Shown piece after piece: positions 95 through 58,004 of a DNA stretch of 64,000 bases; position 1 is the stretch's first letter; each line of letters starts with the position of its first letter. The notes under the pieces were generated by a model. The model worked only from the letters and a program-made list of their open reading frames with translations, was not told where the DNA came from and made no database searches. Both the position numbers and the translations under genes were made by a program. The stretch comes from Bradyrhizobium sp. 170 (GTDB lineage: Bacteria > Pseudomonadota > Alphaproteobacteria > Rhizobiales > Xanthobacteraceae): contig NZ_CP064703.1 in NCBI RefSeq assembly GCF_023101085.1, forward strand, positions 3,782,001 through 3,846,000, read 5' to 3'.

Positions 95-512
95 ACTGCC
101 TCCAGACAGGCGCACTGGCTCTTCTCCTCGGCCAGCATTCTTCTGTCGAGACATGGAAGCGGCGGTGGGATCATTTTTCATCAAGCCAACATTGCTGTTC
201 GCGGCCAAAGAGTGCTGTCCGCCTTTGTGGGAACTGTAGTCGAGGGCCAAACTAAAGCGGATGGGTTTTCCGCGCCATTAAATTGCCGTTCAGACACTAA
301 ATTCGATTTTACTCGAGGCGGAATGCGCGAGCCCAGGCGCGCGTGCGTCATGCGAGTGCCAAGCTGGGCGACGGAGATCGGGAAATCCAGGCAAGACAAC
401 GCAACGCGCGGCAAGCTGAGACAAGCACGGGATCCGTTCATCCCCAGATCCCGGATGTGCCCGTCGCAAGGTGCGCATCAATCGGTGCGGCTGCGCTGGG
501 TCAGGAGTTCCT
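95..512. other. intergenic region with one regulatory element
   Basis: No convincing gene was found here. The stretch contains the tandem AT-rich element at 275-311 and the ribosome binding site of the next gene (AGGAG near 503). Overlapping open frames are in composition-driven shadow positions. Confidence 0.5.
275..311 (-). promoter_or_regulatory. tandem AT-rich promoter-proximal element, copy 1
   Basis: On the minus strand the proximal unit is CTGAACGGCAATTTAATGG (293-275) and a second unit TAAAATCGAATTTAG lies at 311-297, about 19 bp away. It reads toward the truncated gene starting at 94. It is nearly identical to the copy at 40738-40775. Binding function is inferred from recurrence only. 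Confidence 0.6.
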
Positions 513-1538
513 ATGTCCGAGCACGAACCCGGCTCTCCTCTCACTTCCGGAGGTGCGTCCGTAGTTCCGTCCCGCGAGCGCGGAGGCGTTTCGAAATTGG
601 CCGCTGCCCGCCCGCCGGCGCTGGGCGAAATTGGGTTTGTCGGCCTCGGCCGCATGGGGGCGGCGATGGCCGCCAACCTCGCGGCCAAGGGACGACAGGT
701 GATCGCCTATGTCCGCCGCCCGGATCGGGTCGGCGAGCTTGAGGCACTCGGTCTGAGGCCCACCACGGACATTGGCGATCTGCTCCACTGCGACGTCGTC
801 ATCAGCATGTTGCCGGACGACGACGTCGTGCGCGAAGTCGTGTTCGGTCGCACGGAGGTTGGCCTCGACGGTCTGGCCGCGGGTCTGATGCCCGGCGCAA
901 TCCATCTGTCGATGAGTACGATCAGCACGGCGGCTGCATCGTTGCTGGCGCGCGAGCATGCGCGGAACGGACAAGGTTATGTCGCTGCGCCGGTCTTCGG
1001 GAATCCGGATGCCGCCAAGGCGCGCCAGCTGTTCATCGTTGCCGCCGGCGTCGCGGCCGATGTCGAGCGCTGCCAGCCGATCCTCGACAGCCTCGGACAA
1101 AGGACGTTCGTGATCGGTGACGAGCCGGGAAACGCAAATCTCGTCAAACTGCTCGGCAATATGATGAGCGCCACGGCACTAGAGATGCTCGGAGAAGTCG
1201 TTGCCGTACTCCGGAAGCATGGGCTGGATCCCCAGCCCTTCATCGACATCATGACGAGCACAATGTTCGGCGGGCGTGCGCACAAAATTTACGGCGACAA
1301 GATTGCTCGACAGAGCTACGCCCCGGGATTTGTCTTACCCCTCGTGCTCAAGGATGTGCGGCTTGCCCTTGCAGAAGCAGAGAACGCGGGCGCTCCGATG
1401 CCATCGGTGGGCGTGGTTCGAGACCGGTTAATCACGGGAATCGCGCGGGGTTACGGCGAACTCGACTGGACCGCCCTGGGGCGCATCGCCGAGGAGGAAG
1501 CCGGTCTCTACGCCGCGCCACCGGTCGCTGCCGATTGA
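513..1538 (+). CDS. NAD(P)-binding beta-hydroxyacid dehydrogenase family protein
   Basis: This is a 341-residue member of the 3-hydroxyisobutyrate / 6-phosphogluconate dehydrogenase-like family, which oxidises or reduces short beta-hydroxyacids with NAD(P). The sequence shows a Rossmann GFVGLGRMG motif near residues 40-50, followed by AAMAANL. A second domain carries the family lysine in NLVKLLGNMM (K212). The start at 513 follows AGGAG; an upstream in-frame ATG at 471 has no such signal. Proteins of this type act in the cytoplasm, and the substrate cannot be read from the sequence. It is followed after 60 bp by an aldo/keto reductase on the same strand, so the two may be co-transcribed. Confidence 0.85.
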   Translation: MSEHEPGSPLTSGGASVVPSRERGGVSKLAAARPPALGEIGFVGLGRMGAAMAANLAAKGRQVIAYVRRPDRVGELEALGLRPTTDIGDLLHCDVVISMLPDDDVVREVVFGRTEVGLDGLAAGLMPGAIHLSMSTISTAAASLLAREHARNGQGYVAAPVFGNPDAAKARQLFIVAAGVAADVERCQPILDSLGQRTFVIGDEPGNANLVKLLGNMMSATALEMLGEVVAVLRKHGLDPQPFIDIMTSTMFGGRAHKIYGDKIARQSYAPGFVLPLVLKDVRLALAEAENAGAPMPSVGVVRDRLITGIARGYGELDWTALGRIAEEEAGLYAAPPVAAD

Positions 1539-1598
1539 AGTTGGACTTGTCCGCCATCCACAGCCTGAAGGCGCATCCACGGAAGAAAGAACAGGATT

Positions 1599-2627
1599 AT
1601 GACTCATCAATCAGAAGCTCTCGCAATGAAACTGCCGCTTACCGAGATTCCCGGCACGTCGCTCAAGGTGTCGCCCGTCGCCATTGGCACCTGGGCCATC
1701 GGCGGGTGGATGTGGGGCGGAACCGACGAAGCTGAATCTGTCGCCACTATCCAGGCCGCTTTCGAGCACGGCATCAACCTTGTCGACACCGCCCCCGTCT
1801 ACGGATTCGGCCGCTCTGAAGAGATCGTTGGCAGGGCGATCGCTGAAAGCGGGTCACGCTCGCACGTGCTAATTGCCACCAAGGCTGGACTTCAATGGGA
1901 GAACGGAAGGGTATCTCGCAACGCCAGCCGCGCCCGCATCATGCGCGAGGTCGAAGATTCCTTGCGCAGGCTTCGAACCGATTACATCGATATCTATCAG
2001 GTCCATTGGCCTGATCCGCTGATTACGATCGAAGAAACCGCGGACGCAATGCACATGCTGCTTGAGCAGGGGAAAATCCGCGCCATCGGGGTGAGTAATT
2101 TTTCGGTCGGCCAGATGGAGCGGTTTCGCTGCGTCGCGCCGCTGCATGTGCTGCAGCCGCCGTACAACTTGTTCGAACGCGGCATCGAGACCGACCTTCT
2201 ACCCTACTGCCGAAAGAACAACATTGCGATGCTGGGATATGGGGCGCTGTGCCGGGGCCTCCTGTCCGGACGGATGCAGGCAAATACGGCTTTCGGTGGC
2301 GACGATTTGAGGCGCGCCGACCCGAAGTTCCTCGAGCCTCGCTTCGCGCAATATCAGACCGCTGTACACAGGCTCGATCGACTCGCTCAGCAACGCTTCG
2401 GCAAGCGGGTTATTCATCTGGCGGTCCGGTGGATGCTCGATCAGGGCATCACCACGGCATTGTGGGGCGCCCGGCATCCCGATCAGTTGCAGCCGGTAGA
2501 CGAAGTGGTGGGTTGGTCGCTCGATGCCTCCGCCAAGCTCGAGATCGATCGGATCCTGCGCGAAACCATCACCGATCCGGTTGGCCCGGAATTCATGGCC
2601 CCGCCGTCGCGGAGCGTTGCAGCGTGA
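1599..2627 (+). CDS. aldo/keto reductase
   Basis: This 342-residue cytoplasmic NADPH-dependent aldo/keto reductase has the complete catalytic tetrad: D63 and Y68 in VDTAPVYGFG, K95 in IATKAGL and H136 in QVHWPD. The C-terminal half carries the usual ALWGAR segment. An AGGA lies just before the ATG, and a second ATG at 1626 is possible. It sits 60 bp behind the dehydrogenase gene and 137 bp before cydA. The family reduces aldehydes and ketones; the natural substrate is unknown. Confidence 0.88.
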   Translation: MTHQSEALAMKLPLTEIPGTSLKVSPVAIGTWAIGGWMWGGTDEAESVATIQAAFEHGINLVDTAPVYGFGRSEEIVGRAIAESGSRSHVLIATKAGLQWENGRVSRNASRARIMREVEDSLRRLRTDYIDIYQVHWPDPLITIEETADAMHMLLEQGKIRAIGVSNFSVGQMERFRCVAPLHVLQPPYNLFERGIETDLLPYCRKNNIAMLGYGALCRGLLSGRMQANTAFGGDDLRRADPKFLEPRFAQYQTAVHRLDRLAQQRFGKRVIHLAVRWMLDQGITTALWGARHPDQLQPVDEVVGWSLDASAKLEIDRILRETITDPVGPEFMAPPSRSVAA

Positions 2628-2764
2628 CGCGCTGGTGGTCGACATCACATAGGGAAGGCGTTGCTGCTGGACCTCAGTTTGGCCTCGGCTCGTCGGGAAT
2701 TGCGCAAAAAGATCCGGTCGATTGATCTAACCAATTCGCGACAAGATATCTTAGGAGGTTTCCA

Positions 2765-4168: not shown

Positions 4169-4170
4169 CC

Positions 4171-5154: not shown

Positions 5155-5174
5155 GGGGTCCGCCGGCGGCCCGG

Positions 5175-5213
5175 CTAAAATCGAATTTAAGTTGCTGAAT
5201 CCCAATTTAATGG
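5175..5213 (+). promoter_or_regulatory. tandem AT-rich promoter-proximal element, copy 2 (cydD)
   Basis: Two units, TAAAATCGAATTTAA (5176-5190) and CTGAATCCCAATTTAATGG (5195-5213), lie 20 bp apart and read toward cydD, whose start is about 107 bp downstream. Its presence separates cydDC regulation from cydAB. The function is inferred. Confidence 0.65.
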
Positions 5214-5319: not shown

Positions 5320-7017
5320 ATGACCGATCGCTTTGGGATACTCTCCTGTCGGATCCCATCCACTGCGGTGGCGCTCTCGCTTGCAGCAAGCCTGATCTGG
5401 ATTCCCCAGGCCCTGATTCTCGCCGACACCGTTGCGGCTGTTTGCATCGGCACCGATGCCGAACTGACCGGACTGTCGCCGATCGTGCTCGCATCGATGT
5501 TCGCGCTGTTGCTGGTGGCCCGATCCGTCGCCGACACTGGAGCGTTTTCGATAAGCGCTCGCACTTCCACGGCGAAAAAATTGGATCTGCGGCGCAAGCT
5601 CATTCAAGCTGTTCTACCGTGGTCCCCGTTCGATGCCACCCGGCCGCCGGCCGGCGAAATCGCGTCGCTTGTTGTTGATCAGGTAGAGACGATCGACCCG
5701 TTTCTCGTCAGGTATCAGATCGCCCGATTCAGAATGGTGGTGGTTCCCGTCGCAATTCTCGTCGCGATTCTGCCGGTCAGCTGGGCTGTCGCATTGATGC
5801 TGGCGATCGCTGGACCGGTAATTCCGATTTTCATGGCGTTGATCGGCGCAACGGCGCGGGAGCGCAGCCGCCGGCAACTCGACGAAGCGGGCAACTTGAC
5901 CGGGCTACTGCTCGATCGCCTGCGCGGTCTGGCGACCATCCGTCTATTGGGCGCTGAAGAGCGTGTCGCCGCGGCAATCGGGGCTTCCGGTGAGCGCATG
6001 AGACGCTCCGCCATGGATGTGCTGTCGGTCGCCTTTCTGTCTTCTGCGGTGCTCGAATTTTTTGCCACCGTCGGTGTCGCGATGGTGGCGCTTTATGTCG
6101 GCTTCTATCTTTTGGGATGGGTTACCTTTGGCGCCACACTGACCGGTTTCGGACTATCCGGAGGTCTGTTCATGCTGTTGCTGGCGCCGGATTTCTTTCA
6201 GCCGTTGCGAGAGTTCGCGGCCGGCTATCACGACCGCGCCGGCGTGGCGGGGTTCGCCGAACGCACAGATGATATCTTCAACGTCGAGCGGCCGAGCATC
6301 GTCGGTCACCTTGATGCCACCGCGCATCGCCATCTCGATCGTCCTCCAGCGTCCTCAGTGGACGTCAGACGGTTGACTGTCCGGCTTGCAGGCTGTGAGC
6401 GTCCGTTGCTGAAGCGTGCGAACCTTGCGGTCGCCGCCGGCGAGCACGTCGCGATCATGGGACTGAGCGGCGCCGGGAAGAGCGCCTTGCTTCACGCTAT
6501 CGCAGGTCTCATCGAAGGAGTTCAGGGCCGAATTGCGATCGATGGCATGCTCCTTACAAGCGACACGGCGAAAACTTTACGTCGTCGAATGGCCTGGATC
6601 GGACAGGAGCCGTTTGTGCGGCAAGCCTCGCTCGAGCGAAATCTTCAACTGGGGGACCAGTCGATCGACCGCGAGCGCGCCGCCGCCGTGCTTGAGACCG
6701 CGCGCCTGACGGAACAGGTAGCGCGGATGCAGCGCCAGATGCTGACGCCGATCAGCGAGAATGGTGCAGGTCTCTCGGGCGGGGAGCTTCGCCGTCTCGC
6801 GATCGCGCGCGCGGTGCTAGCCGATGCACCGGTGATTCTTGCGGACGAGCCGACGGCGGATCTCGACGGCGCGACTGCAGATGAAGTTCGCTCGGCACTT
6901 CTGGATGCGGCGCGGGGGAAGACACTGATTGTTGCGACACACGACGAAGATCTGGCTCGCCGGATGGATCGGATCATTACCCTGTGCTTCGGCAGCATCG
7001 AGGAAATCGCTTCGTGA
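5320..7017 (+). CDS. cydD: thiol reductant ABC exporter subunit CydD
   Basis: CydDC is a heterodimeric ABC exporter that moves cysteine and glutathione to the periplasm and is needed to assemble cytochrome bd. This 565-residue half-transporter has an N-terminal six-span membrane domain. Its ATPase domain shows Walker A GLSGAGKS near residue 380, signature LSGGELRR near 484 and Walker B VILADEP near 503. The ATG at 5320 is chosen because GGAG lies six bases upstream; a longer frame from 5227 lacks support. The cydC GTG overlaps its stop codon, and cydAB just upstream supports the assignment. Confidence 0.9.
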   Translation: MTDRFGILSCRIPSTAVALSLAASLIWIPQALILADTVAAVCIGTDAELTGLSPIVLASMFALLLVARSVADTGAFSISARTSTAKKLDLRRKLIQAVLPWSPFDATRPPAGEIASLVVDQVETIDPFLVRYQIARFRMVVVPVAILVAILPVSWAVALMLAIAGPVIPIFMALIGATARERSRRQLDEAGNLTGLLLDRLRGLATIRLLGAEERVAAAIGASGERMRRSAMDVLSVAFLSSAVLEFFATVGVAMVALYVGFYLLGWVTFGATLTGFGLSGGLFMLLLAPDFFQPLREFAAGYHDRAGVAGFAERTDDIFNVERPSIVGHLDATAHRHLDRPPASSVDVRRLTVRLAGCERPLLKRANLAVAAGEHVAIMGLSGAGKSALLHAIAGLIEGVQGRIAIDGMLLTSDTAKTLRRRMAWIGQEPFVRQASLERNLQLGDQSIDRERAAAVLETARLTEQVARMQRQMLTPISENGAGLSGGELRRLAIARAVLADAPVILADEPTADLDGATADEVRSALLDAARGKTLIVATHDEDLARRMDRIITLCFGSIEEIAS

Positions 7018-10696: not shown

Positions 10697-11938
10697 CTAC
10701 GATCTGGGCATGACGCCTGGCCCGTTGTCCGGCCATTTCGCGATGGTCGCCTCGTCGATATTCAGATGCTGGGCTACCAACGCCGGCGGCGTGTGCGTCA
10801 GCCAGTTGGACAGTGAAATCTCTTCGTAGCGCGAAGCCCTAAAGACGCCGACGAACTGCAGGTCGGTGTCGCCGACATTCTCGACATAATGTCCAAGGTT
10901 ACGCTTGACGTAGCCGATGTCGCCAGGATTGAAATCCATCGTCATCGCATTCGGGCCGGTATTGAAGACCGTCATGCGTCCCTTTCCCTTGATGTAATAC
11001 TGCCATTCGTCGGCGTTCGGGTGCCAGTGCATCTCGCGCACACCGCCGGGACGAACGGTTACCAGCGCGGCTGCAATCCTGGTTGCGACGGGGAAGTTGC
11101 TACTGTCGGCGATCCGCTCGTCGCCGCCCCTGGATTCCCTCGCCGGTGCCGACGATGCAAGGCGGAAGATAAACGGATGAGGTGGAACGCGGCCGGTTTT
11201 GCTGATCGCAGCACGGTCAGATGCCAGATCGCCGGGCAAGGTGCCCTGGAAGATCCAGAGGTTCTGCAGCGGGATCTTGGCGAATGTCTGGGCCGGGACG
11301 CCAAAATTCTTGGCAAGGATCTCGGGAGGCGTATGAGCGAACCAGTCCGTCACCAATAGCGTATTGAATTCGCTGGCATCGCCGTCGTCAAAGCAGATTA
11401 CGAATTCGCAGCCGTCCGGGCCGAGACCCTGTAGCGAATGCGGCTGGCCTGCCGGAAAATACCAAAGGTCGCCCTCGTTGACGTCCGCCACGTATGGCCG
11501 GCCTACAGCGTCGAGAACGGTCACGCGGCAGCTGCCGTAGGTCATGATCGCCCACTCGGCGGCCTGGTGCCAGTGCAATTCCCTGATGCCGCCGGCGGTC
11601 AAACGCATGTTGACGCCCGTGATCGTGTTTGAGATGGCGAAATCAGCCTGCGTCACCTGCCGTGCCCAGCCGCCGTTCTGGATGCGCTTTGGCGCGTTGT
11701 TGAAGGACGCCCAGTCAATCGGCATGCCGCCGACGTCGGTGGCGGGCGGAGTTTGCGCTGAAGGAAACTGGTTGCCGATGGCCTCATTTTGCGGGCCAGG
11801 ATCTCTGAGACTTCCTGGAGCTTTGGCGTTGACAGCGCCTTGCGCCGGCTGGTCCGGATTACCGAAGGAAGCGGCGTGCGCCGCGGTTGCAACTGCACCT
11901 GCAGCACTGACTGCCAATACGTTCCGTCTCGAAAACAT
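10697..11938 (-). CDS. Tat-exported bicupin, oxalate decarboxylase family
   Basis: This is a 413-residue two-cupin protein of the oxalate decarboxylase/oxidase family, which splits oxalate to formate and CO2 using manganese. The N-terminus has a twin-arginine signal (SRRNVLAVSAAGA), so the enzyme should be periplasmic. Each cupin has a metal site: ELHWHQAAEW in the first and REMHWHPNADEW in the second. A DSSNFP segment sits where OxdC carries its lid loop. The start at 11938 follows GAGGAG. An AT-rich element lies 66 bp upstream. A frameshifted paralogue is at 17146-18401. Confidence 0.88.
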   Translation of the reverse strand: MFSRRNVLAVSAAGAVATAAHAASFGNPDQPAQGAVNAKAPGSLRDPGPQNEAIGNQFPSAQTPPATDVGGMPIDWASFNNAPKRIQNGGWARQVTQADFAISNTITGVNMRLTAGGIRELHWHQAAEWAIMTYGSCRVTVLDAVGRPYVADVNEGDLWYFPAGQPHSLQGLGPDGCEFVICFDDGDASEFNTLLVTDWFAHTPPEILAKNFGVPAQTFAKIPLQNLWIFQGTLPGDLASDRAAISKTGRVPPHPFIFRLASSAPARESRGGDERIADSSNFPVATRIAAALVTVRPGGVREMHWHPNADEWQYYIKGKGRMTVFNTGPNAMTMDFNPGDIGYVKRNLGHYVENVGDTDLQFVGVFRASRYEEISLSNWLTHTPPALVAQHLNIDEATIAKWPDNGPGVMPRS

Positions 11939-12003: not shown

Positions 12004-12022
12004 CCACTAAATTAATATTCAG
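12004..12022 (-). promoter_or_regulatory. AT-rich promoter-proximal element, copy 3 (bicupin)
   Basis: The minus strand reads CTGAATATTAATTTAGTGG, ending 66 bp before the bicupin start codon. It is a single unit in the same orientation relative to its gene as the other copies. Confidence 0.6.
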
Positions 12023-16517: not shown

Positions 16518-16922
16518 TTACGGCCAAGTGTCGTCCGGTAGGTTGATCACGATGGGCGTCGCCGTGCTGCGCACGACAACCCATCGAAACGGCGCCTGTT
16601 TCGAGGGATTGATTTCCATATGGGGCAGGAAGGCGGGGACATGAATGAAGTCTCCGGCCTTCGCACGCGCGACCGATTTTCCTCGCGCACCCCATCGTAT
16701 TTCGCAGATGCCAGAGAGCACGTAGGCGATCGTCTCCTGGTCTCCGTGATGATGTATTCCCGTCCGCGATCCCGGCTCCACCTCGAACAGGCCGCCCCAG
16801 ATTCCGGACGCGATGCCAAGCGCTGGCGCGATAGCGGCGCGACGTTCGGAGCCTGGCGTCTGCGCTGTTCCCGGATCGAATTGGGCGGGGCTGACGATGT
16901 GAATTTCAGAAGGAGAACTCAT
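16518..16922 (-). CDS. single-domain cupin protein
   Basis: This 134-residue single cupin has the metal-binding signature HHHGDQETIAYVLSG and a second motif, GDFIHVPAFLPH, so it should bind one divalent metal in the cytoplasm. No signal peptide is seen. Start codons at 16955, 16937 and 16922 are all possible; 16922 is chosen because the protein reads MSSPSEIH and lies at a distance from the upstream AT-rich element like that of the other genes. It precedes paoA by about 50 bp. Its function is unknown. Confidence 0.75.
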   Translation of the reverse strand: MSSPSEIHIVSPAQFDPGTAQTPGSERRAAIAPALGIASGIWGGLFEVEPGSRTGIHHHGDQETIAYVLSGICEIRWGARGKSVARAKAGDFIHVPAFLPHMEINPSKQAPFRWVVVRSTATPIVINLPDDTWP

Positions 16923-16983: not shown

Positions 16984-17002
16984 ACCACTAAATTGGAATT
17001 TA
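16984..17002 (-). promoter_or_regulatory. AT-rich promoter-proximal element, copy 4 (cupin-pao)
   Basis: The minus strand reads CTAAATTCCAATTTAGTGG, the most symmetric copy, whose first 16 bases form a perfect CTAAATT/AATTTAG dyad. It lies 28-62 bp before the candidate cupin start codons and may drive the cupin and pao genes. Confidence 0.65.
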
Positions 17003-17145
17003 GATATCCGCGTCGAACTGAGGACACGGTCGCGGCTGCTCGGTGGTGACACCGATCGTGACACGATCGACTGCGCGCATCTTCCCATTTCTCGTCCGGG
17101 TGTGCTCGCGGTGAGCTTCTTGCGCCGATCGAAGAAAGCGCGCCA

Positions 17146-18401
17146 TTATCGAGAACCGCCGGCCGGATGCTCCGGCATGCCTTCCGGCTTGTTCTTAGGG
17201 AATTTTGCGATGGTAGCCTCGGTCTCGTTGAGGTGCTGGGCAACCATCGATGGCGGCGTGCGGGAAATCCAGTCGGAGAGGGAGACATCTCGAAATAGGG
17301 AGACTCTGAACACTTCGAGAAACTGCAAATCGCTATCGCCAGTGTTCTTTATATAATGTCCCAGGTTCTTCTTGACGTAGCCGACGTCGCCCGCGTTGAA
17401 ATCCATGGTGACGGCGTTCGGGCCAGTGCTGAGGATCGTCATTTGGCCTTTGCCCTTGATCCAGTATTGCCATTCGTCGGCGTTAGAGTGCCAGTGCCTC
17501 TCCCGTAGGCCACCGGGACGCACGGTGACCAGTGCGGCGGCGACCGTTGTAGAAACGGTGAAGTTGCGGCTGTCGGCGATCCGCACCGAACCGCCCTTGG
17601 TCGCGCGCGGGGGCTCCCGATCCGAGCGAGAAAGTGAAGGGGTGCGGCGGCGCGCCGCTTCCGCTCACCGCCGCGCGGTCCGCGGCGAGGTCGCCGGGTA
17701 ACTCGCCTTGGAAGATGTAGAGGTCGCGCAACGGGATATCCTTGAACGTCTCGGCGGGGACACCGAAATGTTGACCGAGGATATCCGGCGGCGTATGCGT
17801 GAACCATTCCGACATCTGGAGGGTAGTGAACTCGGAAGCCTTGCCTTCATCGAAACAGAGAAGGAACTCGCAGCCGTCCGGGCCGAGCCCCTGAAGGGAA
17901 TGCGGCAGGCCGGGAAATACCAAAGGTCACCTTCTTTCACGTCGGCGATATATCGGCCTAATTCGTCGAGAATGGTGATGCGGCACGCGCCGCACGTCAT
18001 GTAGGCCCACTCTGCAAACTGGTGCCAGTGCATCTGGCGGATGCCGCCGGCCGTCAGCCGCATGTTGACGCCGGAGATGGTGTCCGCAACCGCAAAGGAG
18101 TCCTGCGTTACGGCCCAGCCGCCATTTTGAATGCGCCGCGGCGCGTTGGTGAACGATGCCCAACTCAGCGGCATGCTGCCGACGTCCGTCTCTGAGAAAA
18201 TGCCGCCGGAAACTGATCCCTTATGGCCGGATTCTGCGGACCGGAATCGGTGATGCTCCGTGGAGTCTTCGCGTTGATTGCACCCTGCGGAGGATCGTTT
18301 GGATTGCCGAAGGTGATGTCACTCTTCACCGGCGCGGCATTCGCCGTGGTCATTGTAGCTGCCGTCATCGCCCCACCGACGGCTGTCGCCGCCAACATGT
18401 C
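17146..18401 (-). pseudogene. frameshifted second bicupin (oxalate decarboxylase family)
   Basis: The reading frame aligns throughout with the intact bicupin at 10697-11938 but is broken by about three frameshifts, near 18170, 17915 and 17600. The pieces still show the twin-arginine start region (FSRRDML), cupin 1 (QMHWHQFAEW), the HSLQGLGPDGCEF segment, and cupin 2 (RERHWHSNADEW). No in-frame start codon is visible upstream of the arginine pair. Sequencing error could explain one frameshift but hardly three in one gene beside clean neighbours. It is probably a decayed duplicate. Confidence 0.8.
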
Positions 18402-18570
18402 ACGCCTCGAAAACTGTTCACCCCTGTGCCAGAACGAAGAGAATGGTGGAGGTAGTCGCGGGCTTTTCCTGAGCCGTTATATAAAGGTTTAGAACGGCTC
18501 ATCCGCGCGTATTTTGAATCAGGCGCTGCCCAGCCAATACTGGCGGCATTGGCACGGCTGTGATCTTCGA

Positions 18571-22892: not shown

Positions 22893-23726
22893 CTAGCAGC
22901 CAGTGGCTGATGTTCCTGAGGTCAGGCACGGGAACAGGTTTGTTGCCGTGGATGAAGCCGCGGGCGGAGGGGCAACCGTGGGGATTGTCGGCAGCACTGC
23001 ACTCGGACCCACGGTGGGCGCCACGGTTAGTGTCGGCACCGCTGGTGTGGCACTGACCCCAAGATTGCTAATCTCCGTCGAGCCCAACGGAATTCCGGTT
23101 CGAGCGACACCGCCGGGCGCAGTGGGCGCCGTCGAGGTTGGAGTAGATGATGAAACCACGCTGCTTGAGCCCGAGCCGCACATTCCCGACATTCCCGCCG
23201 TTTCCATCGTTCCTGAAGTTGCCGAAACTCCCGACGTGCCCAGGATGCTTGACGAACTCGATATGCCCGACGAAGTTGACGCTCCCGACATTGTCGTGCT
23301 GCCCGTGATCGCTGCGCTGCCGGCCGTTGTTGCGGTGGCGGGTGATCCTGTTCCCATCCCCATTCCGCCGCCATCGAAGCTCGCGGTGGACCCGAACATT
23401 GAGGATGGCGACGTCCCCACGGTCGAACATGCCGTACCACTAGCTGTACTCGGAATCGTGATTGTGCCCGTTACGCCGGTGGGTGCGGGACTGAGTCCTG
23501 GAGAAGTGATCTCAGTGGAGCCGAGCGGGATTCCGGTCGGTCCGACTGACGTACCTGGGCTCACCCCAAGCGGCGACGTCGCATCAAGGGTCTGCGTCGT
23601 CACCATTGCACCAACTTGCGCGATGGCCCCGGTGGAAGCCAGGAGCGCCGGAAGCATCGCAAGACTCAACGAGAATCTTAACCGTATTCTCCGTGTGAAT
23701 CCGGCGGCGCCGAGGCCAGAGCGCAT
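22893..23726 (-). CDS. exported Ser/Thr/Gly-rich low-complexity protein
   Basis: From an ATG at 23726 with GAGG upstream, the protein has 277 residues. A signal peptide (LSLAMLPALLASTGAIAQ) is followed by a long region rich in S, T, G, P and A. Two copies of a GIPLGSTEI unit are visible near residues 65 and 215, and it ends in TSATGC. I do not recognise a function. The opposite strand is also open across this gene, which is a composition artefact. Longer starts (23780, 23924) are possible. A weak AT-rich element lies 210 bp upstream. Confidence 0.65.
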   Translation of the reverse strand: MRSGLGAAGFTRRIRLRFSLSLAMLPALLASTGAIAQVGAMVTTQTLDATSPLGVSPGTSVGPTGIPLGSTEITSPGLSPAPTGVTGTITIPSTASGTACSTVGTSPSSMFGSTASFDGGGMGMGTGSPATATTAGSAAITGSTTMSGASTSSGISSSSSILGTSGVSATSGTMETAGMSGMCGSGSSSVVSSSTPTSTAPTAPGGVARTGIPLGSTEISNLGVSATPAVPTLTVAPTVGPSAVLPTIPTVAPPPAASSTATNLFPCLTSGTSATGC

Positions 23727-23935
23727 CGACGCCTCGGAGCGAGTTTTTGCGATTTCGATCACGACAGCCTCGCGGACCATTCGAGCAACCGCGATTGGCG
23801 GAATCGACAGCGGCAGAGTTGAAAGAAGAAGGGCAGCATGGAGTCGCTCCAAGGAATGATTGAATGATCGCAGGATCGTCGTTTTGGTCGGCTCTAAACG
23901 CTTCAATCGTAATTGGCCGGACAATCAAACCTGTT

Positions 23936-23954
23936 CAACTAAATTTGCGTTTAT
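23936..23954 (-). promoter_or_regulatory. weak AT-rich element upstream of the low-complexity gene
   Basis: The minus strand reads ATAAACGCAAATTTAGTTG, which departs from the other copies in its first base and in GTTG for RTGG. It reads toward the exported protein gene. It is a weak match. Confidence 0.35.
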
Positions 23955-24826: not shown

Positions 24827-25750
24827 TCAAGGCTCCTGCATCGCCGCCGGCGCTAGTGCAGCGTGGTTCTTCGCCGCCTTTCGCACCTTCTCGAACGCAC
24901 GCGCCTCGATTTGCCTGACGCGTTCACGCGACACGTTGAATTTGACCGCGAGGTCCTCCAGCGTCTGCGCTTCGTCCGCCAAATGGCGCGCCTCGAAGAT
25001 ACGACGCTCGCGGTCGTTCAGTAGAGCGATTGCAGCGACCAGCGCCCTGCGCCGGTGGTCTTTCTCGTCCTGTTCGACGACGATAGCTTCCGGCGAGGGG
25101 GACTGGTCAACCAGATGTTCCTGCCATTCGGTGGGTTCGCCCTGTTCATGAATTGGTGCATTGAGTGATGCATCACCGCCGAGGCGTCGATTCATGTCGA
25201 CAACGTCCTGGCCCGTAACATTGAGGCATTTCGCGATCGAGGTTACCTGATCGGGACGTAGGTCGCCGCTTTCGTATGCCGCGATCTTGCTTTTTGCCGT
25301 GCGCAGCTTGAAAAAGAGCTTCTTCTGATTGGTGGTGGTTCCGATTTTCACAAGTGACCACGAGCGCAGAATATAATCCTGTATTGAAGCCCTGATCCAC
25401 CACATCGCATATGTGGCAAAGCGAAAACCTTTTTCGGGCTCAAAACGGTTCAATGCCTGCATCAGGCCGACGTTGCCCTCGGAGATGATCTCCGAGATGG
25501 GCAGGCCATAGCCGCGGTAGCCCATGGCGATTTTGGCGGCGAGACGAAGATGACTTGTCACAAGCTGGTTCGCGGCATTGCGGTCGCCGTTCTGGCGCCA
25601 ACGTTTGGCGAGGTTGTATTCCTGGTTCCTTTCGAGCATCTCGAAGCGCCGGATGGTGTAGAGATAGTTCTTGCCGCTTCCATCTCTGGCGAATGCTGGT
25701 TCACGCTTGGCTGGAACCGTGAGGCCTGCGAATTGTCCTTCAACGCTCAT
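24827..25750 (-). CDS. rpoH: RNA polymerase sigma-32 family factor (RpoH type)
   Basis: This 307-residue sigma-70-family protein has region 2 (ISEIISEGNVGLMQALNRFE, then FATYAMWWIRASIQDYI), an RpoH-box-like TNQKKLFFKLR near residue 130, and region 4 with VSRERVRQIEARAFEKVR near 280. Alphaproteobacteria usually carry several RpoH paralogues for heat and oxidative stress. The ATG at 25750 is chosen because GGAG lies about ten bases upstream; the longer frame would run into the regulatory element. A tandem AT-rich element lies 90 bp upstream, divergent from a small exported protein gene. Confidence 0.9.
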   Translation of the reverse strand: MSVEGQFAGLTVPAKREPAFARDGSGKNYLYTIRRFEMLERNQEYNLAKRWRQNGDRNAANQLVTSHLRLAAKIAMGYRGYGLPISEIISEGNVGLMQALNRFEPEKGFRFATYAMWWIRASIQDYILRSWSLVKIGTTTNQKKLFFKLRTAKSKIAAYESGDLRPDQVTSIAKCLNVTGQDVVDMNRRLGGDASLNAPIHEQGEPTEWQEHLVDQSPSPEAIVVEQDEKDHRRRALVAAIALLNDRERRIFEARHLADEAQTLEDLAVKFNVSRERVRQIEARAFEKVRKAAKNHAALAPAAMQEP

Positions 25751-25839: not shown

Positions 25840-25878
25840 CCATTAAATTGGCGTTTAGGGGCGCTAAATTCGAATTCA
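25840..25878 (-). promoter_or_regulatory. tandem AT-rich promoter-proximal element, copy 5 (rpoH)
   Basis: On the minus strand TGAATTCGAATTTAG (25878-25864) is followed by CTAAACGCCAATTTAATGG (25858-25840), 21 bp apart. It reads toward rpoH and forms a divergent regulatory region with the element at 25922-25940. Confidence 0.68.
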
Positions 25879-25921
25879 ATCGGGAAACGTCGCCGAACGA
25901 GCGTGCACGTTTTCGCCACGC

Positions 25922-25940
25922 CTAAAAAAAGTTTTAGTGG
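25922..25940 (+). promoter_or_regulatory. AT-rich promoter-proximal element, copy 6
   Basis: The plus strand reads CTAAAAAAAGTTTTAGTGG and then AGACGATTTG, an extension shared in part with the copy at 32343 (TGACGGTTTG). It points to the frameshifted exported protein at 26139. Confidence 0.6.
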
Positions 25941-29361: not shown

Positions 29362-29907
29362 CATGTCCTCCAACACCAGTGTCATCAAACAGATGAGAGC
29401 TGACGTTGGGAAATCGATTAAAAAAAATCTTTATGTTCACTGAGTGTTTCATCATCTCTGAGCCGCAGGTGGGAATAGATCAAGCCGGGCCAGGAATTGC
29501 CTCCCAAGCCCTGACATGCTCGTGGGCGTCTCGTCGGCCAATCCAGAGCGATATCGGTCTGGATGTTCATGGAGCCGGCGATTGCGATGGGACAACCGTC
29601 CGGCGGTGCGATCTTTGGTATCGAGCAAGCATGTGAGACGATCGTGCGACACGCGAATTTTGGCAAATCAGACGGCAGAATAAATTCGTATTTACTCGTC
29701 AAACGCGCCCGAGCCTCTATCTCTTCCCTATCTCTCGGGTGTTGCGCTTGTCTGCCTTGTGCAACCCCCGAATTCATTCCGGTAAGTGCCAGAGCTCCCC
29801 AAACAGGAGCGCTCAGTGCTCGCTGGAGCTGAAAGCCTCAGCTGTAGGGACGTGCTTACGGCGATCGGGCGTCGAACAATTGCGGGAGTGGCGCAGGAGT
29901 CCTGGTA
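29362..29907. other. intergenic region, no supported gene
   Basis: Only short overlapping frames on both strands are present, none with a domain or good start signal. An A/T-rich patch lies near 29417-29432. Confidence 0.35.
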
Positions 29908-32023: not shown

Positions 32024-32416
32024 CGCGCGAAATTCGCATCGCTATAGCCTCCGCGGTTCCAACGCCTAACCTTCTTGTGGGGTCGCGATTAATTCGTTCC
32101 AGGCGCATCCTCTTGGAATTGGTGCGAGGCCGACGGCACAAGCAGTGTGAAGGCGTTCCATTGATGTCGACGCGTGGCAAATTGCGCGGCACGGCAATTT
32201 GCGGAAGGACCGCGCGGGTTTGTTTGTTGGGTACAGCAGACACCGTTCAGAGCTGCATAGGCTTCCGCTAGTGACCAACACGGACATTAGCCCGTTTCGT
32301 ACGACGCGGCTGCTGAACGTGCTTGCACCGTTCCCGCCGCGCCTAAACAAGATTTTAATGGTGACGGTTTGGGCGTTTCCTATCTGAAAAATATTCGCAC
32401 AATAAAGGAGACAACC
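32024..32416. other. intergenic region with one regulatory element
   Basis: No gene is supported here. It contains the AT-rich element at 32343-32361 and the AAGGAG at 32405-32410 of the following small frame. Confidence 0.45.
32343..32361 (+). promoter_or_regulatory. AT-rich promoter-proximal element, copy 7
   Basis: The plus strand reads CTAAACAAGATTTTAATGG followed by TGACGGTTTG. It lies 56 bp before the ATG at 32417. It closely resembles the copy at 41836-41854. Confidence 0.62.
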
Positions 32417-32734: not shown

Positions 32735-33766
32735 ATGAATCAGATCACTAGCATGTCCCGCCCCAAGTTTCTGCCTGACAACTTCACCCTATCGCTAATC
32801 GGGACGCTCGTCGTAGCGAGCGTCCTGCCGTGCCGCGGCGCGGCGGCGGCGACCGTAGATGATCTCACCAACGTCGCCATCGCCCTGCTGTTTTTCCTGC
32901 ATGGAGCAAAGTTGTCGCGTGAAGCCGTGATCGCGGCGGCAAGCCACTGGCGGCTACACGTCCTGGTGCTATTGATTACATTTGTCGTGTTTCCGCTGTT
33001 CGGCCTGGCGTTCAAACCGCTCCTGTCTCCACTCGTGACGCCCACGCTTTACGCCGGTATCCTATTTCTCTGCACCCTGCCGTCCACGGTCCAATCCTCA
33101 ATTGCCTTCACGGCCATGGCGAAGGGCAACGTCCCGGCGGCGGTCTGCAGCGCCTCGGCCTCGAGCATCATCGGCATCTTCGTCACGCCGCTGGTAGGGA
33201 GCCTCGTGCTCTCGAGCCATGTCGGATTGGGTTCGGGCTGGCGAACCGTCGGCGAAATCGTGCTGCAGCTGTTCGTGCCCTTCGTCTGCGGGCAGCTTCT
33301 AAGGCCGTTGATTGGCGGATGGATCCAGCGCAACGAGAGCATCGTTAGCGGGATTGACCAAGGCTCGATCCTGCTCATCGTCTACTCAGCCTTTAGCGAG
33401 GCAGTAGGCGAAGGCCTGTGGCGCCAGGTTCCGCCTTCGGCGCTGGCCGGGCTGCTAGTCGCCGACGGCGTGCTTCTGGCGGCCGCGCTAATCACCACCG
33501 CGCTGGTCAGCAAATGGCTGGGCTTCGAGCGTGCCGACCGGGTAACCATCGTCTTCTGCGGCTCGAAGAAGAGCTTGTCTCAGGGCATCACCATAGCCAA
33601 GGTGATCTTCGCTTCGCACGCCGTGGGCGCGGCCATCCTTCCCCTCATGATCTTCCATCAGATCCAGTTGATGGTCTGCGCGGCACTGGCCCAGCGGTGG
33701 GGCCGTTGCGCGGAGACTTTTCCATCCCTGGCTTCAGCGGATGCGAAATCCCTTTTGCCGCACTGA
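32735..33766 (+). CDS. bile acid:sodium symporter family (SLC10-like) transporter
   Basis: This 343-residue membrane protein has ten predicted spans of the SBF/BASS fold. It shows FLHGAKLSREAV near residue 53, the TLPSTVQSSIAFTAMAKGN crossover near 115 and CGSKKSLSQGI near 275. These features match the YfeH/SLC10A7 branch, which is thought to move organic anions with sodium. The start could also be 32753 (MSRPKFLPDN), which reads like other family members. Its substrate is unknown. Confidence 0.87.
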   Translation: MNQITSMSRPKFLPDNFTLSLIGTLVVASVLPCRGAAAATVDDLTNVAIALLFFLHGAKLSREAVIAAASHWRLHVLVLLITFVVFPLFGLAFKPLLSPLVTPTLYAGILFLCTLPSTVQSSIAFTAMAKGNVPAAVCSASASSIIGIFVTPLVGSLVLSSHVGLGSGWRTVGEIVLQLFVPFVCGQLLRPLIGGWIQRNESIVSGIDQGSILLIVYSAFSEAVGEGLWRQVPPSALAGLLVADGVLLAAALITTALVSKWLGFERADRVTIVFCGSKKSLSQGITIAKVIFASHAVGAAILPLMIFHQIQLMVCAALAQRWGRCAETFPSLASADAKSLLPH

Positions 33767-34892: not shown

Positions 34893-35650
34893 GATAAACC
34901 TGCCGTGTGAGATGCTCGTCCGAATTACTTACGCCTTCCAAAACAGGCCTCTGAGGCGCTGACGGAAATCGACTCCGTCCGCACGATTCAAAACTTTGCG
35001 CCTCGCGGATATCGGAGGCCTAGCTCAGCGCAGCGCCTCCTGCGTGAACATGCTCGATTTGGGTGGGTTCTTCCATCACACTTGCGTTCTGTGGCATAAC
35101 ATCTTCTGGTCGTCTGCGATAAACCTTGGTTTGACCGTCATGACGAAACGGCAGCGAAGTCGGGGAGGGGGCGTACGAGGATGGACGCCAGATGGAGCCG
35201 CGCTAAGGCCGCCTCGATTGGCGGCCTTGTCGTTAATTCCGATCAAGCCGCCTCATTGCCCCAAACGTCGGGGCCGTATGATGCAAACCTAGGATCGAAC
35301 GTAACCCTGGAGGTCACTTGGTGCGGGTCCTCGACAGTCCGCGATGTGAGTATGTCCGAAAATTTCTGATCGAACACCCGCAGAACGTGGGGCCGGCGGC
35401 CAGCAGGATTTAGGCCCCCGCCAGCGCTCACAGCGGCGGTTCTTGCCTGCCTATGGCAAGCCACTCCGGGAATCTAACAGAGAATTTAATGGGACCGACG
35501 GATTGCGAACCTACATCAGGATCGTGCCGCTCTCCCTCAGGCAGGCACTGCTAGCACGGCCCCAGCGGCTCCCCCCGGTCGCTGGGGCCGGACGACCGAT
35601 CGCCCGCGCACAGCCGATCGGGGACGCGATCGACCTATGGAGAAATCAAA
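34893..35650. other. intergenic region with one regulatory element
   Basis: No gene is supported. It carries the AT-rich element at 35474-35492 and a 20-base sequence shared with the region upstream of 38826. Confidence 0.4.
35474..35492 (+). promoter_or_regulatory. AT-rich promoter-proximal element, copy 8
   Basis: The plus strand reads CTAACAGAGAATTTAATGG. It is followed at once by CGGATTGCGAACCTACATCA, which recurs after the copy at 38891-38909. It lies about 160 bp before the small exported protein gene at 35651. Confidence 0.6.
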
Positions 35651-35881
35651 ATGCGGAGAGTGAGGAAGGCTGTAGCTACGCCGTACGCCGTCCTGATCGG
35701 CACGGGCCTATTGATCACCTTGTGCGCTTCCACCAACGCCGCGACGGTGCATCGCTCTAAACCGCGACATGTCCAAGGTTTGTCCTTTCACGACGCCGTT
35801 CCGCCACGGCCGCCGGTCCACTACGACGACACCCCGAGCTACAACGATCCGTCCAAGTTTGGCGGCGGCACGGCGTTATGA
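35651..35881 (+). CDS. small exported protein, paralogue of the gene at 39047
   Basis: This 76-residue protein has a signal peptide (YAVLIGTGLLITLCASTNAA) and a mature part of about 45 residues rich in proline, histidine and aspartate. GGAG lies nine bases before the ATG. The signal region and first mature residues (LCAST/ANAATVH) match the protein at 39047, so the two are paralogues. No domain is recognised, and it is probably periplasmic. Confidence 0.65.
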   Translation: MRRVRKAVATPYAVLIGTGLLITLCASTNAATVHRSKPRHVQGLSFHDAVPPRPPVHYDDTPSYNDPSKFGGGTAL

Positions 35882-38308: not shown

Positions 38309-38602
38309 TCAACATCCCCGGCAGATCGAATTTATCATTTTGTCGACCTTCGCGTCTTCAGGGTCGATAGCGGGCTTGGTGTCAAGCATGGGGTGGCCCA
38401 CGCCATCTGACGAAAGCGCCGTGCCCGACGAGTTGGTGCCGGGCGCGGCAGCGGTGGTGCCGAACGCGCCGCCGCCCATCATGGACATACCCATATGAGG
38501 CGATCCCATGCCATGCGCTCCTCCCATGCCGCCGCGGGCAAACGCCGCCGTGGTTGAAAGGCCAACGCAAAGGGCGATGCAAAGAACGGAGAGCTTTTTC
38601 AT
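38309..38602 (-). CDS. small exported Gly/Met-rich protein
   Basis: This 97-residue protein has a good ribosome site (GGAG, seven bases upstream) and a signal peptide (LSVLCIALCVGLSTTAAFA). The mature part starts RGGMGGAHGMGSPHMGMSMM and ends CRGC. The run of methionine, glycine and histidine could bind metal such as copper, but that is only a composition argument. It follows the gene at 38617 by 14 bp and is likely co-transcribed from the AT-rich element at 38891. Confidence 0.68.
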   Translation of the reverse strand: MKKLSVLCIALCVGLSTTAAFARGGMGGAHGMGSPHMGMSMMGGGAFGTTAAAPGTNSSGTALSSDGVGHPMLDTKPAIDPEDAKVDKMINSICRGC

Positions 38603-38890: not shown

Positions 38891-38909
38891 CCATTAAATT
38901 GAATTTTAT
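38891..38909 (-). promoter_or_regulatory. AT-rich promoter-proximal element, copy 9
   Basis: The minus strand reads ATAAAATTCAATTTAATGG, and CGGATTGCGAACCTACATCA follows, shared with copy 8. It lies 65 bp before the ATG at 38826. Confidence 0.62.
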
Positions 38910-39371: not shown

Positions 39372-40580
39372 TCATCGCGCGCCTTCCGGCGCGCCGGCGA
39401 CGGACGCCTTTACGTCGAGCCGATGGGACAGAAAGCTGAGCGTGAAGGCGACAGCGGCCAGAGCCGCGCCGATCCACGGCAACTCGCGATAGGCCAGACC
39501 GTCGGTCAGGGCGAGACCGCCGACCCAGGCGCCTGCCGCGTTGCCAAGATTGAATGCACCCTGATTGAGGGTAGAGGCGAGATTGGGCGCCTGCGCTGCC
39601 TCGTTGACGACGCGCATCTGCAATGGGGAGACCAGGGCGAACGCCAGCAAGCCCCAGCAGAAGACCGTCGCGGCCGCCGGCACCAGCGATCCGGTCGTAA
39701 GCGTGAACAGGCCCAAGACCGGAATCAGTAACGCCAGGATGCCGATCACTGACGGCATCAGCTTCCGGTCGCCGAGCCACCCTCCAATGAAATTACCCGC
39801 CGTGAGTCCAGTGCCGAACAGCAGCAGCATGAACGTGACCTCGTGCGGCGAGATCACTGTCACGTTCTCCAGAATCGGGGTGATGTAAGTGAAGACACTG
39901 AAGAGGCTTGCAGACACCGCCATGCTGATCAGCATTGCTAAAATCACTTGCGTGCTGCCAAGCGACCTTGCCTCGTGGATGAACTGCATGCGGGGAGCGG
40001 GTATGTCGCGCGGCAGCCAGGCGTAAAGGGCAAATGCCGCGGCGAAGCCGATGACAACCACGGCCCAAAATGTATTCCGCCAGCCGACGGCTTCGCCGAG
40101 TGCGGTGCCAAACGGAACGCCCAGCACATTGGCGAGGGTGAGACCGGCGAACATCATTGCGATCGCTTGGGCCTTTTTCTGCTCCGGCACCAGGGTGGCG
40201 GCGACGACAGCGCCGAGTCCGAAGAATGCGCCGTGACAAAGTGCCGTTGCGATTCGCGCGGCCATCAACAGGGCATAATTCGGAGCCAGCGCGCAAAGCA
40301 GGTTGCCGAGAATGAAGATGCCGATCAGCAAAAGCAACGCCCTCCGCCGGTCCATCCTTGCCGTTGCAATGGCAAGGAAAGGAGACCCGAATGCCACGCT
40401 CAACGCATATCCGGTCACAAGGAGACCGGCGTGCGGGATCGTGACGCCAAGATCGCCGGCAACATCGGGCAACAGTCCCATGATCACGAATTCGGTTGTG
40501 CCGATCCCAAACGAAGCCAACGCGAGGGCGAGCAAAGGAAGTCGGCTCGTGGAGGCCGGAATTTTAGTTGCGAGAGGCAT
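39372..40580 (-). CDS. MFS efflux transporter, DHA1 family
   Basis: This 402-residue twelve-span major facilitator protein has the N-terminal FGIGTTEFVIMGLLP signature of the sugar/drug efflux (AraJ/YdhP-type) branch of the DHA1 family. The loop after the second span reads ATARMDRRRALLLL, the family A motif in altered form. It exports small molecules by proton antiport from the inner membrane; the substrate is unknown. A tandem AT-rich element lies 158 bp upstream and reads toward it. Confidence 0.87.
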   Translation of the reverse strand: MPLATKIPASTSRLPLLALALASFGIGTTEFVIMGLLPDVAGDLGVTIPHAGLLVTGYALSVAFGSPFLAIATARMDRRRALLLLIGIFILGNLLCALAPNYALLMAARIATALCHGAFFGLGAVVAATLVPEQKKAQAIAMMFAGLTLANVLGVPFGTALGEAVGWRNTFWAVVVIGFAAAFALYAWLPRDIPAPRMQFIHEARSLGSTQVILAMLISMAVSASLFSVFTYITPILENVTVISPHEVTFMLLLFGTGLTAGNFIGGWLGDRKLMPSVIGILALLIPVLGLFTLTTGSLVPAAATVFCWGLLAFALVSPLQMRVVNEAAQAPNLASTLNQGAFNLGNAAGAWVGGLALTDGLAYRELPWIGAALAAVAFTLSFLSHRLDVKASVAGAPEGAR

Positions 40581-40737: not shown

Positions 40738-40775
40738 CCATTAAATTGCCGTTCAGAAAACTCAATTCGATTTTA
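40738..40775 (-). promoter_or_regulatory. tandem AT-rich promoter-proximal element, copy 10 (MFS pump)
   Basis: On the minus strand TAAAATCGAATTGAG (40775-40761) is followed by CTGAACGGCAATTTAATGG (40756-40738), 20 bp apart. The proximal unit is identical to copy 1. Confidence 0.65.
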
Positions 40776-40884
40776 TGCGAGCAGGTTGGGCGTTGGTACG
40801 CGGCGGTCAGCTCAAGCTGATCGGGGTGGCGGCTGGCGCTGACTTCTGCCGGCTTCGAGGTGGCGGTTTAAGGCATTCGTCACA

Positions 40885-41515: not shown

Positions 41516-41791
41516 CTAGGTACCGGAGTCGTCGCCGCCAACCAACCCGGGTCTGTTGTTCGGACCGAACCCATACCTGCCACCGTCCGAACACCAACCG
41601 TCCAGATACCCACCGTTGTCCCTACACCCACCGTAGTTCATCCACCCCCTATACGTCGGGGCGTAACTCATGCCAACCGCACCGTGGTGGGTCCTGACAC
41701 CTGACCTATGATGATTTGGATTTGTGTATGCAAGTGCGAACGTACTTGAGAGCGCGAACGCAGAGGCTAGTGCCAGGGTCACAAGTTTCAT
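41516..41791 (-). CDS. small exported Gly/Tyr-rich protein
   Basis: This 91-residue protein starts after AAGGAGATAACC, an ideal ribosome site. A signal peptide (LVTLALASAFALSSTFALA) precedes a mature part rich in glycine, tyrosine and asparagine with two cysteines (GGCRDNGGYLDGWCSDGG). This glycine-rich, histidine-bearing composition is common among tiny exported rhizobial proteins. An AT-rich element lies 45 bp upstream. The function is unknown. Confidence 0.7.
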   Translation of the reverse strand: MKLVTLALASAFALSSTFALAYTNPNHHRSGVRTHHGAVGMSYAPTYRGWMNYGGCRDNGGYLDGWCSDGGRYGFGPNNRPGLVGGDDSGT

Positions 41792-41835: not shown

Positions 41836-41854
41836 CCATTAAAACCTTGTTTAA
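41836..41854 (-). promoter_or_regulatory. AT-rich promoter-proximal element, copy 11
   Basis: The minus strand reads TTAAACAAGGTTTTAATGG followed by CGACGG. It lies 45 bp before the ATG of the small exported protein and is close to copy 7. Confidence 0.6.
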
Positions 41855-56963: not shown

Positions 56964-56974
56964 ATCGTTAGGCT

Positions 56975-57242: not shown

Positions 57243-57547
57243 AAGTCTTGGGAGGAATACGCCGAGGAGCAAAAACAGCTCCCGCGCAATCGCAACCTCA
57301 ATATGGCGGGTAATTGTTTCCGGCCGTCTTCGTTCAAACAGGAAAATGGCTGCTGGATCGTTTCTTCGGAACCGAGGCCGTGAAGCGAGTTCACGGATTC
57401 GAGAGGCCGCGGCGCTGAAGTCGGAAACTTCCGACTCTCCGATAGATTTACCGGGTAGCCGGTTCACGCTGGCGGGCGAGCGGCATGCCCGGTTTCTCCG
57501 CTGCACCGCGCTGCCAACGTACTCCAAGCCTCGGGGACCGTGGACGT
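57243..57547. other. gene-poor stretch ending in a leftward terminator
   Basis: I see no supported gene, but the strong minus-strand terminator at its left end suggests that something is transcribed leftward here, possibly the downstream part of the transcript that includes the small membrane protein at 57548. Confidence 0.35.
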
Positions 57548-57685
57548 TCAGCTAGGAGGCGAGATCATGGGCTGAATGCTGGTGCCTAACCACATGGCGG
57601 CTGCGATCATGATGACCGCTCCGACCACAAGGATCATCAAGTCGTTCGTGAGCCAACGGGGGACGCGCTTCTCAGGTTTCGTCAT
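57548..57685 (-). CDS. 45-residue single-span membrane protein
   Basis: The ATG at 57685 follows GGAGGG eight bases upstream. The peptide starts MTKPEKRVPRWLTND, then has a hydrophobic helix (LMILVVGAVIMIAAAMWLG) and a short polar tail. The arrangement is that of a genuine small inner-membrane protein with a basic cytoplasmic start. A relic of an ABC binding protein lies upstream in frame. Confidence 0.6.
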   Translation of the reverse strand: MTKPEKRVPRWLTNDLMILVVGAVIMIAAAMWLGTSIQPMISPPS

Positions 57686-57831
57686 GGCCTGGGCCCTCCG
57701 TAACCTGCATTCTCCGACGGACGAGAGCGCGACGTTGTGATCCAGTTCACGCAATCGGGAAAAAATGGCAATTCGGCGGGCGATGTCCGAAAACTCTCCC
57801 AGACGGGAATACTTCGCGACTGCTGGAGACC

Positions 57832-57928
57832 CGATGACTTCATCCGCGAGTGCGAGCATCGTGGGCGGGATGTCGAGGCCAATAGCCTTGGCAGTTGCGA
57901 GCGGCGATAAGGATGTCGCATTTAGGCA
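57832..57928 (-). pseudogene. C-terminal scrap of an ABC substrate-binding protein
   Basis: The minus frame encodes ATAKAIGLDIPPTMLALADEVI. This is the C-terminal tail (usually AKALGLTVPPTLLARADEVIE) of a family of ABC substrate-binding proteins. Nothing of the preceding 280 or so residues is present, and the frame runs on without the normal stop. It is a leftover from a lost gene. Confidence 0.6.
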
Positions 57929-57985
57929 ACAGCTCCAGTAAATGTGACCCATCCCAATCTTGTCCGTCGCCTCGCTTGGGACATT

Positions 57986-58004
57986 CCACTAAAATCAGAC
58001 TCGC
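57986..58004 (-). promoter_or_regulatory. weak AT-rich element
   Basis: The minus strand reads GCGAGTCTGATTTTAGTGG: the 3' half fits the family (ATTTTAGTGG) but the 5' half does not. It points left toward the scrap and the small membrane protein. Confidence 0.35.

Follow-up and report, generated by a model that had tools for sequence, protein, structure and literature searches.

Bradyrhizobium sp. 170 carries a 19-bp promoter element, here called the box, upstream of about thirty transcription units that lie together in one chromosomal region. The box probably serves as the operator for a two-component system of the OmpR/PhoB family whose genes lie in that region, with a dimer of the response regulator seated on the dyad of the box and activating transcription in class II style; judged from sequence, this reading can be given a probability of roughly 0.8. 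The element was recognized in a stretch of 64,000 bp (the window), which covers positions 3782001–3846000 of the single 9,195,219-bp chromosome. The original prediction, drawn from the letters of the window, held that the box marks one undescribed regulon and guessed at a Ros/MucR-type zinc-finger protein as its reader. The single regulon is upheld, since one element with one promoter geometry precedes all these units as well as, in other genomes, many of the orthologues; a different reader is proposed here.

Box Copies in the Window and in the Genome

With up to three mismatches, CTRAAYNNNNATTTARTGG matches the window 26 times, against 2.83 expected (100 shuffles, largest count 8), some places being counted on both strands owing to the dyad. 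The core TTTARTGG, described in the original prediction as over-represented, indeed occurs 12 times against 1.05 expected. Window sites were scored with a matrix for which exact copies in other genomes were the sole source. The 11 main sites first listed score between 11.3 and 31.2 on the 19-mer, nine of them at least 22, compared with a maximum of 12.9 in 20 simulated windows (first-order Markov, one strand each), 18 of which have maxima below 10. All 11 are present, one of them moved from 16984 to 16985. The lower scores belong to 25922 (14.0) and 41836 (11.3); the latter, lying under the best simulated score, does not stand out on its 19-mer alone, and it has a good -10, TATCT. A weak copy on the same list, 23936, is borderline (14.7), and another, 57986, scores 2.3 and was rejected. 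Weak sites at 18474 and 29680 were added, and four promoters proved to have a second dyad upstream, at 294, at 25861 and, less strongly, at 5175 and 40758. A further candidate at 59048 was also turned down, since its 19-mer score of 15.4 is accompanied by no -10 and a full score of 5.3.

A genome scan of the kind proposed at the outset gave 20 matches to the first pattern with at most one mismatch, against none for the backward control, and 19 of the 20 lie at 3665596–3822756 (here and below, seven-digit positions refer to the chromosome, G000:C1). A relaxed 14-letter pattern has 25 matches with at most one mismatch, 24 of them inside 157 kb (3.665–3.823 Mb). At two mismatches it has 74 against 50 for the control, so that weak matches elsewhere are mostly due to chance. 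Strong copies in this genome keep to a single region of roughly 160 kb, referred to below as the island.

In a 340-kb stretch around this region, 34 sites score at least 16 with a matrix built from 27 of the genome's own sites, and all of them fall between 3665596 and 3823836. The intergenic placement and fixed orientation first noticed in the window hold here as well: every one of the 34 lies outside called genes, although called genes cover 67% of the island, and the next called gene is co-oriented with the box for 31. These gene calls come from a crude caller of our own with uncertain starts for small genes, and the regulator and kinase genes were set by hand. Off the island, 178 kb of the same genome were free of sites scoring at least 16 on both strands, as was a control stretch of 20 kb. 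The GC content of the region is about 0.58–0.63 per 5 kb and is not clearly distinct from that of the neighbouring sequence examined. No tRNA gene that might mark an end of the island was found in the 17 stretches examined of 3.56–3.90 Mb.

Architecture of the Box Promoters

The box consists of an inverted repeat, CTRAAY-N4-RTTTAR, directly continued by TGG, and a -10-like box stands at a set distance beyond it. An alignment of 28 core copies from the 340-kb stretch gives CTRAA..N..ATTTAR, TGG and a -10-like CCTAYMT, whose T, in 22 of them, follows the first T of TTTARTGG at a distance of 27 bases. The geometry was then examined in 75 non-redundant exact copies from other genomes, for which the 19-mer had been the only selection criterion. 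Of these, 20 have TAYHT at offset 27 and seven at offset 28; elsewhere between offsets 8 and 44 it occurs four times. A second dyad lies 19–21 bp upstream in eight of the 75 and at no other distance. Class II activators occupy sites centred near -41.5. If the -10 hexamer ends at -7, the centre of the dyad comes to lie near -41.5 as well, the place of a class II activator, and the box overlaps the -35 region at a fixed distance from the -10, as expected for such a site.

Another class of boxes has ATTTA(A/C)TTGA at its end instead of ARTGG, with a better -35 and a -10-like stretch slightly further on (3723860, 3728633 and 3734132 on the chromosome, 24062 in the window, L087:6472 and L088:1408). 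It precedes a Dps-like gene here and RND-pump genes both here and in two other genomes.

A Two-Component System as the Candidate Reader

The response regulator gene of the island lies at 3740172–3740849, 273 bp behind a box, and is followed by a kinase gene at 3740917–3742284. The encoded regulator combines a receiver and a winged-helix domain (PF00072 and PF00486), which places it in the OmpR/PhoB family, and its orthologue in genome G057 carries the same two domains. When box loci from 20 other Bradyrhizobium genomes were inspected, an OmpR-type regulator–kinase pair or its kinase was found beside the box in 15, and a box scoring at least 14 stands directly before the pair in 13 of those 15. 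At some of the 20 loci the box also precedes an adjoining rpoH-like gene, two small exported proteins or an RND pump, and at the remaining five it precedes other genes. The island regulator is 83% identical to the query used to find it, the next best protein of this genome reaching 51%. A FixJ-type regulator at 3766038, which had been the initial candidate, was dropped because 15 of the 20 loci hold the OmpR-type pair or kinase. A protein search gave no names more specific than generic ones such as OmpR-family response regulator among the best 120 of 7886 matches.

Regulator and box also occur together across genomes. An orthologue of the regulator (E ≤ 1e-80) is present in 109 of 265 Bradyrhizobium genomes. 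Genus-wide the exact pattern has 238 matches, of which this genome contributes 14, against two for the backward control, and 51 of the 55 motif-bearing genomes possess the regulator, compared with 22.6 expected (p = 2.7e-19, a value that treats related genomes as independent, which they are not). In other genera of the family, the regulator was found in eight of 10 motif-bearing genomes and in one of 46 motif-free genomes, the latter taken as one genome per genus (p = 2.7e-7). The orthologues in these eight are 67–91% identical, and no more than about 2.1 kb separates the motif from the regulator gene in seven of them. There are 58 Bradyrhizobium genomes with the regulator and without the exact motif; among the 39 of these that were examined, 38 have a box scoring at least 16 within 900 bp upstream of the regulator, in the right orientation and within 310 bp in at least 30 of the 38.

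Conservation extends to the presumed targets. Orthologues of box genes are preceded by a box in 30 of 32 cases in G166, 18 of 27 in G020 and 11 of 16 in G425, which belongs to another genus, compared with 0 of 88 gene upstreams outside the island. The orthologue counts are approximate because some downstream open reading frames (ORFs) chosen by the caller are doubtful, and the two rpoH queries, as well as queries 3665596 and 3704976, can share one target. The orthologues of the small cupin gene of the window have a box before them in all three genomes. The sequences themselves show the motif, the geometry of its promoters, its conservation, and its co-occurrence and physical linkage with the regulator gene. 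In two other Bradyrhizobium genomes, G041 and G042, the box is dispersed over the chromosome, with 25 and 12 exact copies, and the box genes of G041 encode cytochrome bd-like and bo-like oxidases, an RND pump and an RpoH-like protein, as judged by eye from the translations.

Proposed Mechanism and Alternatives

A dimer of the response regulator, presumably phosphorylated, would bind the inverted repeat and would activate rather than repress. The inner end of the dyad would overlap a poor -35 (TGG), with its centre about 41.5 bp before the predicted start, and RNA polymerase would be recruited to the CTAYMT-type -10, as in class II activation. At some promoters a second dimer may sit two helical turns upstream. 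It is also tempting to suppose that the sigma-32-like factors of the island read these promoters, since their -10 and ARTGG would fit the positions of RpoH promoters (PMC3441632); a housekeeping -10, however, would have the same appearance.

Several observations weigh against this reading. The -10 is poor in a number of copies, such as 5195, 23936 and 25922. OmpR-family regulators often bind direct repeats, and an inverted repeat would be less usual for the family. Among the 38 genomes with a near box and no exact motif, the box is listed on the other strand alone in seven and further upstream alone in one, and G019, which has a diverged orthologue (75%), has no box upstream of the regulator. 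Conversely, four Bradyrhizobium genomes (G134, G136, G208 and G237) have the motif and no close orthologue; G134, with three motif copies, is rated 99% complete, and G136 is 70% complete. Outside the genus, the same combination is found in G492 (77% complete) and G498 (93%), and G306 has a 73% orthologue and no exact motif. Finally, the overlap of the box with the -35 region would suit a repressor too, and the direction of control is undecidable by sequence. That the OmpR-type regulator binds the box and mainly represses is nevertheless regarded as unlikely, since a poor -35 (TGG for TTGA) and a fixed spacing between dyad and -10 would be suited to class II activation.

The other alternatives concern the identity of the reader. 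It is distinctly unlikely that the box forms the -35 side of promoters recognized by alternative sigma factors, most simply the RpoH-like factors of the island, even though an rpoH-like gene adjoins the regulator pair in several genomes and two such genes lie on the island. Alphaproteobacterial RpoH promoters are described as having TTG at -36 to -34 and a -10 of the type C-C-A-T-N-T, and ARTGG and C-Y-A-H-N-T of the box promoters align with -36 to -34 and with -14 to -9 of these promoters (PMC3441632). The -10 of the box promoters would suit RpoH, but the TTG needed by RpoH at -36 to -34 reads RTG here. Moreover, a dyad of 16 bp with a free centre exceeds a -35 box, and the second dyads 19–21 bp upstream speak against an alternative sigma factor. 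A different regulator of the island, either the FixJ-type response regulator (3766038–3766697) or the AraC-type protein encoded beside the first window site, is a very unlikely reader. Both are encoded in or beside the region and the AraC-type gene itself bears a box, but the 15 loci of other genomes point to the OmpR-type pair or its kinase, and the box persists at that pair in genomes without an exact copy. The Ros/MucR protein of the original prediction is highly improbable in this role. It would account for an AT-rich site in rhizobial promoters, and the genome has one such gene; that single gene (3519910), however, lies outside the island, the motif tracks the OmpR-family regulator, and Ros/MucR is encoded in all 12 other Bradyrhizobium genomes examined, of which 10 lack the exact motif and seven lack both the motif and the OmpR-family regulator. 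Finally, the many near-identical copies within one region might suggest a dispersed repeat or the end of a mobile element, which is hardly credible: similarity is confined to the box and the -10, the unrelated flanks rule a repeat out, and the placement and co-orientation of the 34 sites of the region argue in the same direction.

Genes Downstream of the Box

If the box is the operator of the OmpR-type system, the system would control its own operon, and its further targets on the island would include both rpoH-like genes, the lone second kinase, genes for an RND pump and for cytochrome bd assembly, the cupins, a ferritin-like Dps protein, transporters and small exported proteins. The box genes with a regulatory role are an AraC-type regulator, the response regulator with its kinase, a lone kinase and two rpoH-like genes. 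Others encode a CydD-like protein, a double cupin, a small cupin, the ferritin-like Dps protein and a DUF202 protein, and further ones encode MFS and SBF-like transporters, an AcrB-type RND pump and, under a weak box, a potassium transporter. The choice of the downstream ORF is doubtful at sites 3705672, 3709844, 3719319, 3756185 and 3805936. As a guess from this gene list, the signal might be redox, respiratory or envelope stress. The sites of the window are given in Table 1.

The genome has four rpoH-type genes (1193679, 7238732, 3742904 and 3806821), two of which lie on the island, both under doubled boxes. The second histidine kinase (3744633–3746015, minus strand) is 52% identical to the first, has a box of its own and lacks an adjoining OmpR-type response regulator; it may feed the same response regulator.

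Many of the box genes encode small exported proteins. A stretch AIQEPGAFAFYYPNxDVLNGG recurs in some of them, and others have a PISGIPxGPxNVGGLNN stretch or Gly/His-rich tails; genes of this kind lie downstream of 3665596, 3704976, 3719319 and 3718826. No Pfam family was found in any of the seven small or low-complexity products scanned, including that of the Ser/Thr-rich ORF 22893–23924. A second copy of the double-cupin gene (window 17665–18398, minus strand) begins with 77 amino acids (18165–18398) and continues in another frame.

Table 1. Boxes, second dyads and associated genes in the window (positions counted from the first base of the window)
Feature	Position	Strand	Remarks
Box CTGAACGGCAATTTAATGG	275..293	-	180 bp before AraC-family regulator gene
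AraC-family regulator gene	start at 94	-	extends left of window
Second upstream dyad GTAAAATCGAATTTAGTGT	294..312	-	same promoter as box at 275
Box before cydD-like gene	5195..5213	+	second dyad 5175-5193
cydD-like ABC transporter gene	5320..7017	+	beside cydAB; ORF open from 5227
Box before double-cupin gene	12004..12022	-	65 bp before gene; TATCT -10-like at fixed distance
Double-cupin gene	10697..11938	-	
Box before small cupin gene	16985..17003	-	62 bp before gene (16518-16922)
Weak box before cupin paralogue	18474..18492	-	paralogue apparently interrupted
Weak box	23936..23954	-	11 bp before Ser/Thr-rich ORF 22893-23924; -10 unconvincing
Box before rpoH-like gene	25840..25858	-	89 bp before gene
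Second upstream dyad of rpoH-like promoter	25861..25879	-	
rpoH-like (sigma-32 family) gene	24827..25750	-	one of the island's two
Divergent box	25922..25940	+	before short exported-protein ORF of low coding score
Weak box	29680..29698	+	good -10 TATCT
Box	32343..32361	+	TATCT -10; short ORF 55 bp on; SBF-like transporter gene 32735-33766 at 373 bp
Box	35474..35492	+	158 bp before 76-amino-acid exported-protein ORF 35651-35881
Box	38891..38909	-	288 bp before Gly/Met-rich exported-protein ORF 38309-38602
Box	40738..40756	-	TATCT -10; 157 bp before MFS transporter gene 39372-40580
Weak second dyad of MFS-gene promoter	40758-40776	-	
Box	41836..41854	-	TATCT -10; 44 bp before 91-amino-acid exported-protein ORF 41516-41791

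Recurrence of the Island

G425, the genome of another genus, has counterparts of the boxes at 275, 5195, 12004, 16985 and 25840, with order and strand unchanged. The first three spacings are nearly equal in the two genomes (4.9, 6.8 and 5.0 kb), and the last is 8.9 kb here against 11.7 kb there. Plasmid p184_1 of Bradyrhizobium sp. 184 carries RND and xanthine-dehydrogenase-like genes, a cupin gene, cydAB and an OmpR-type pair; a box precedes the regulator pair, and few strong boxes are present in the 49 kb examined. A large region with one shared promoter type, a probable regulator inside it and a matching block in another genus offers a candidate case of a regulon that moves as a unit. A bolder and doubtful extension is that the region constitutes a transferable, self-contained transcription programme with two sensor kinases, an activator, two sigma-32-like factors and about thirty matching promoters. 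The box promoters might then be read by the island's own sigma factors, and the stress response might need little from the host's regulators in a new genus.

Comparison with Known Systems

The box would represent a new regulon and a new operator within a regulator family already known; what stands out is its concentration in a single recurring region. The original description of the regulon as undescribed agrees with the literature searched, which holds no published motif of this kind; the two founding papers on the rpoH/RND locus lie outside that search. A search by presumed locus tags led to one paper, on a ferritin-family gene. In DosR-type dormancy and hypoxia regulons, a two-component regulator likewise governs many stress and respiration genes through short dyads. 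These systems differ in having a NarL-type rather than an OmpR-type regulator and a different box.

CusR, HprR and CopR, OmpR-family response regulators for heavy metals and peroxide, resemble the island system as small operons of response regulator and histidine kinase with an RND pump among the targets, and CusR and HprR have an inverted-repeat operator. In E. coli, CusR and HprR have each been described as regulating a single target (PMC8249747), in contrast to the dozens of targets predicted here. The best NCBIfam match of the island regulator is cztR_silR_copR (TIGR01387), at 212.1 bits against a cut-off of 279.2, and two of its orthologues (211.1 and 214.9 bits) also stay below that cut-off. 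The best NCBIfam match of the G057 kinase is cztS_silS_copS, at 178 against a cut-off of 293.

Another likeness is to a two-component system beside the third rpoH gene of soybean rhizobia, known since the 1990s. In G027 the gene order is response regulator, histidine kinase, rpoH, RND, MFP, with a box before the response regulator, and this genome has three rpoH-type genes at E ≤ 1e-50. A 1997 paper by Narberhaus et al. is said in its title to deal with three rpoH-type genes in Bradyrhizobium, with which the G027 count agrees, and Krummenacher and Narberhaus reportedly described a Bradyrhizobium rpoH/RND operon in 2000, with which the gene order agrees. The genes of that locus are presumably those named ragAB-rpoH3-ragCD, and we take the island pair to be orthologous to ragA and ragB. 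The island departs from the rpoH3 locus in that the pair sits among about thirty target promoters, and its two rpoH-like genes are 52–53% identical to the rag-linked rpoH. Gene order on the island also differs from that in G027: about 0.6 kb separates the pair from an rpoH-like gene with which it converges, and the RND gene is located upstream. The rpoH-linked two-component system would in this way gain a predicted operator, a promoter architecture and a list of targets.

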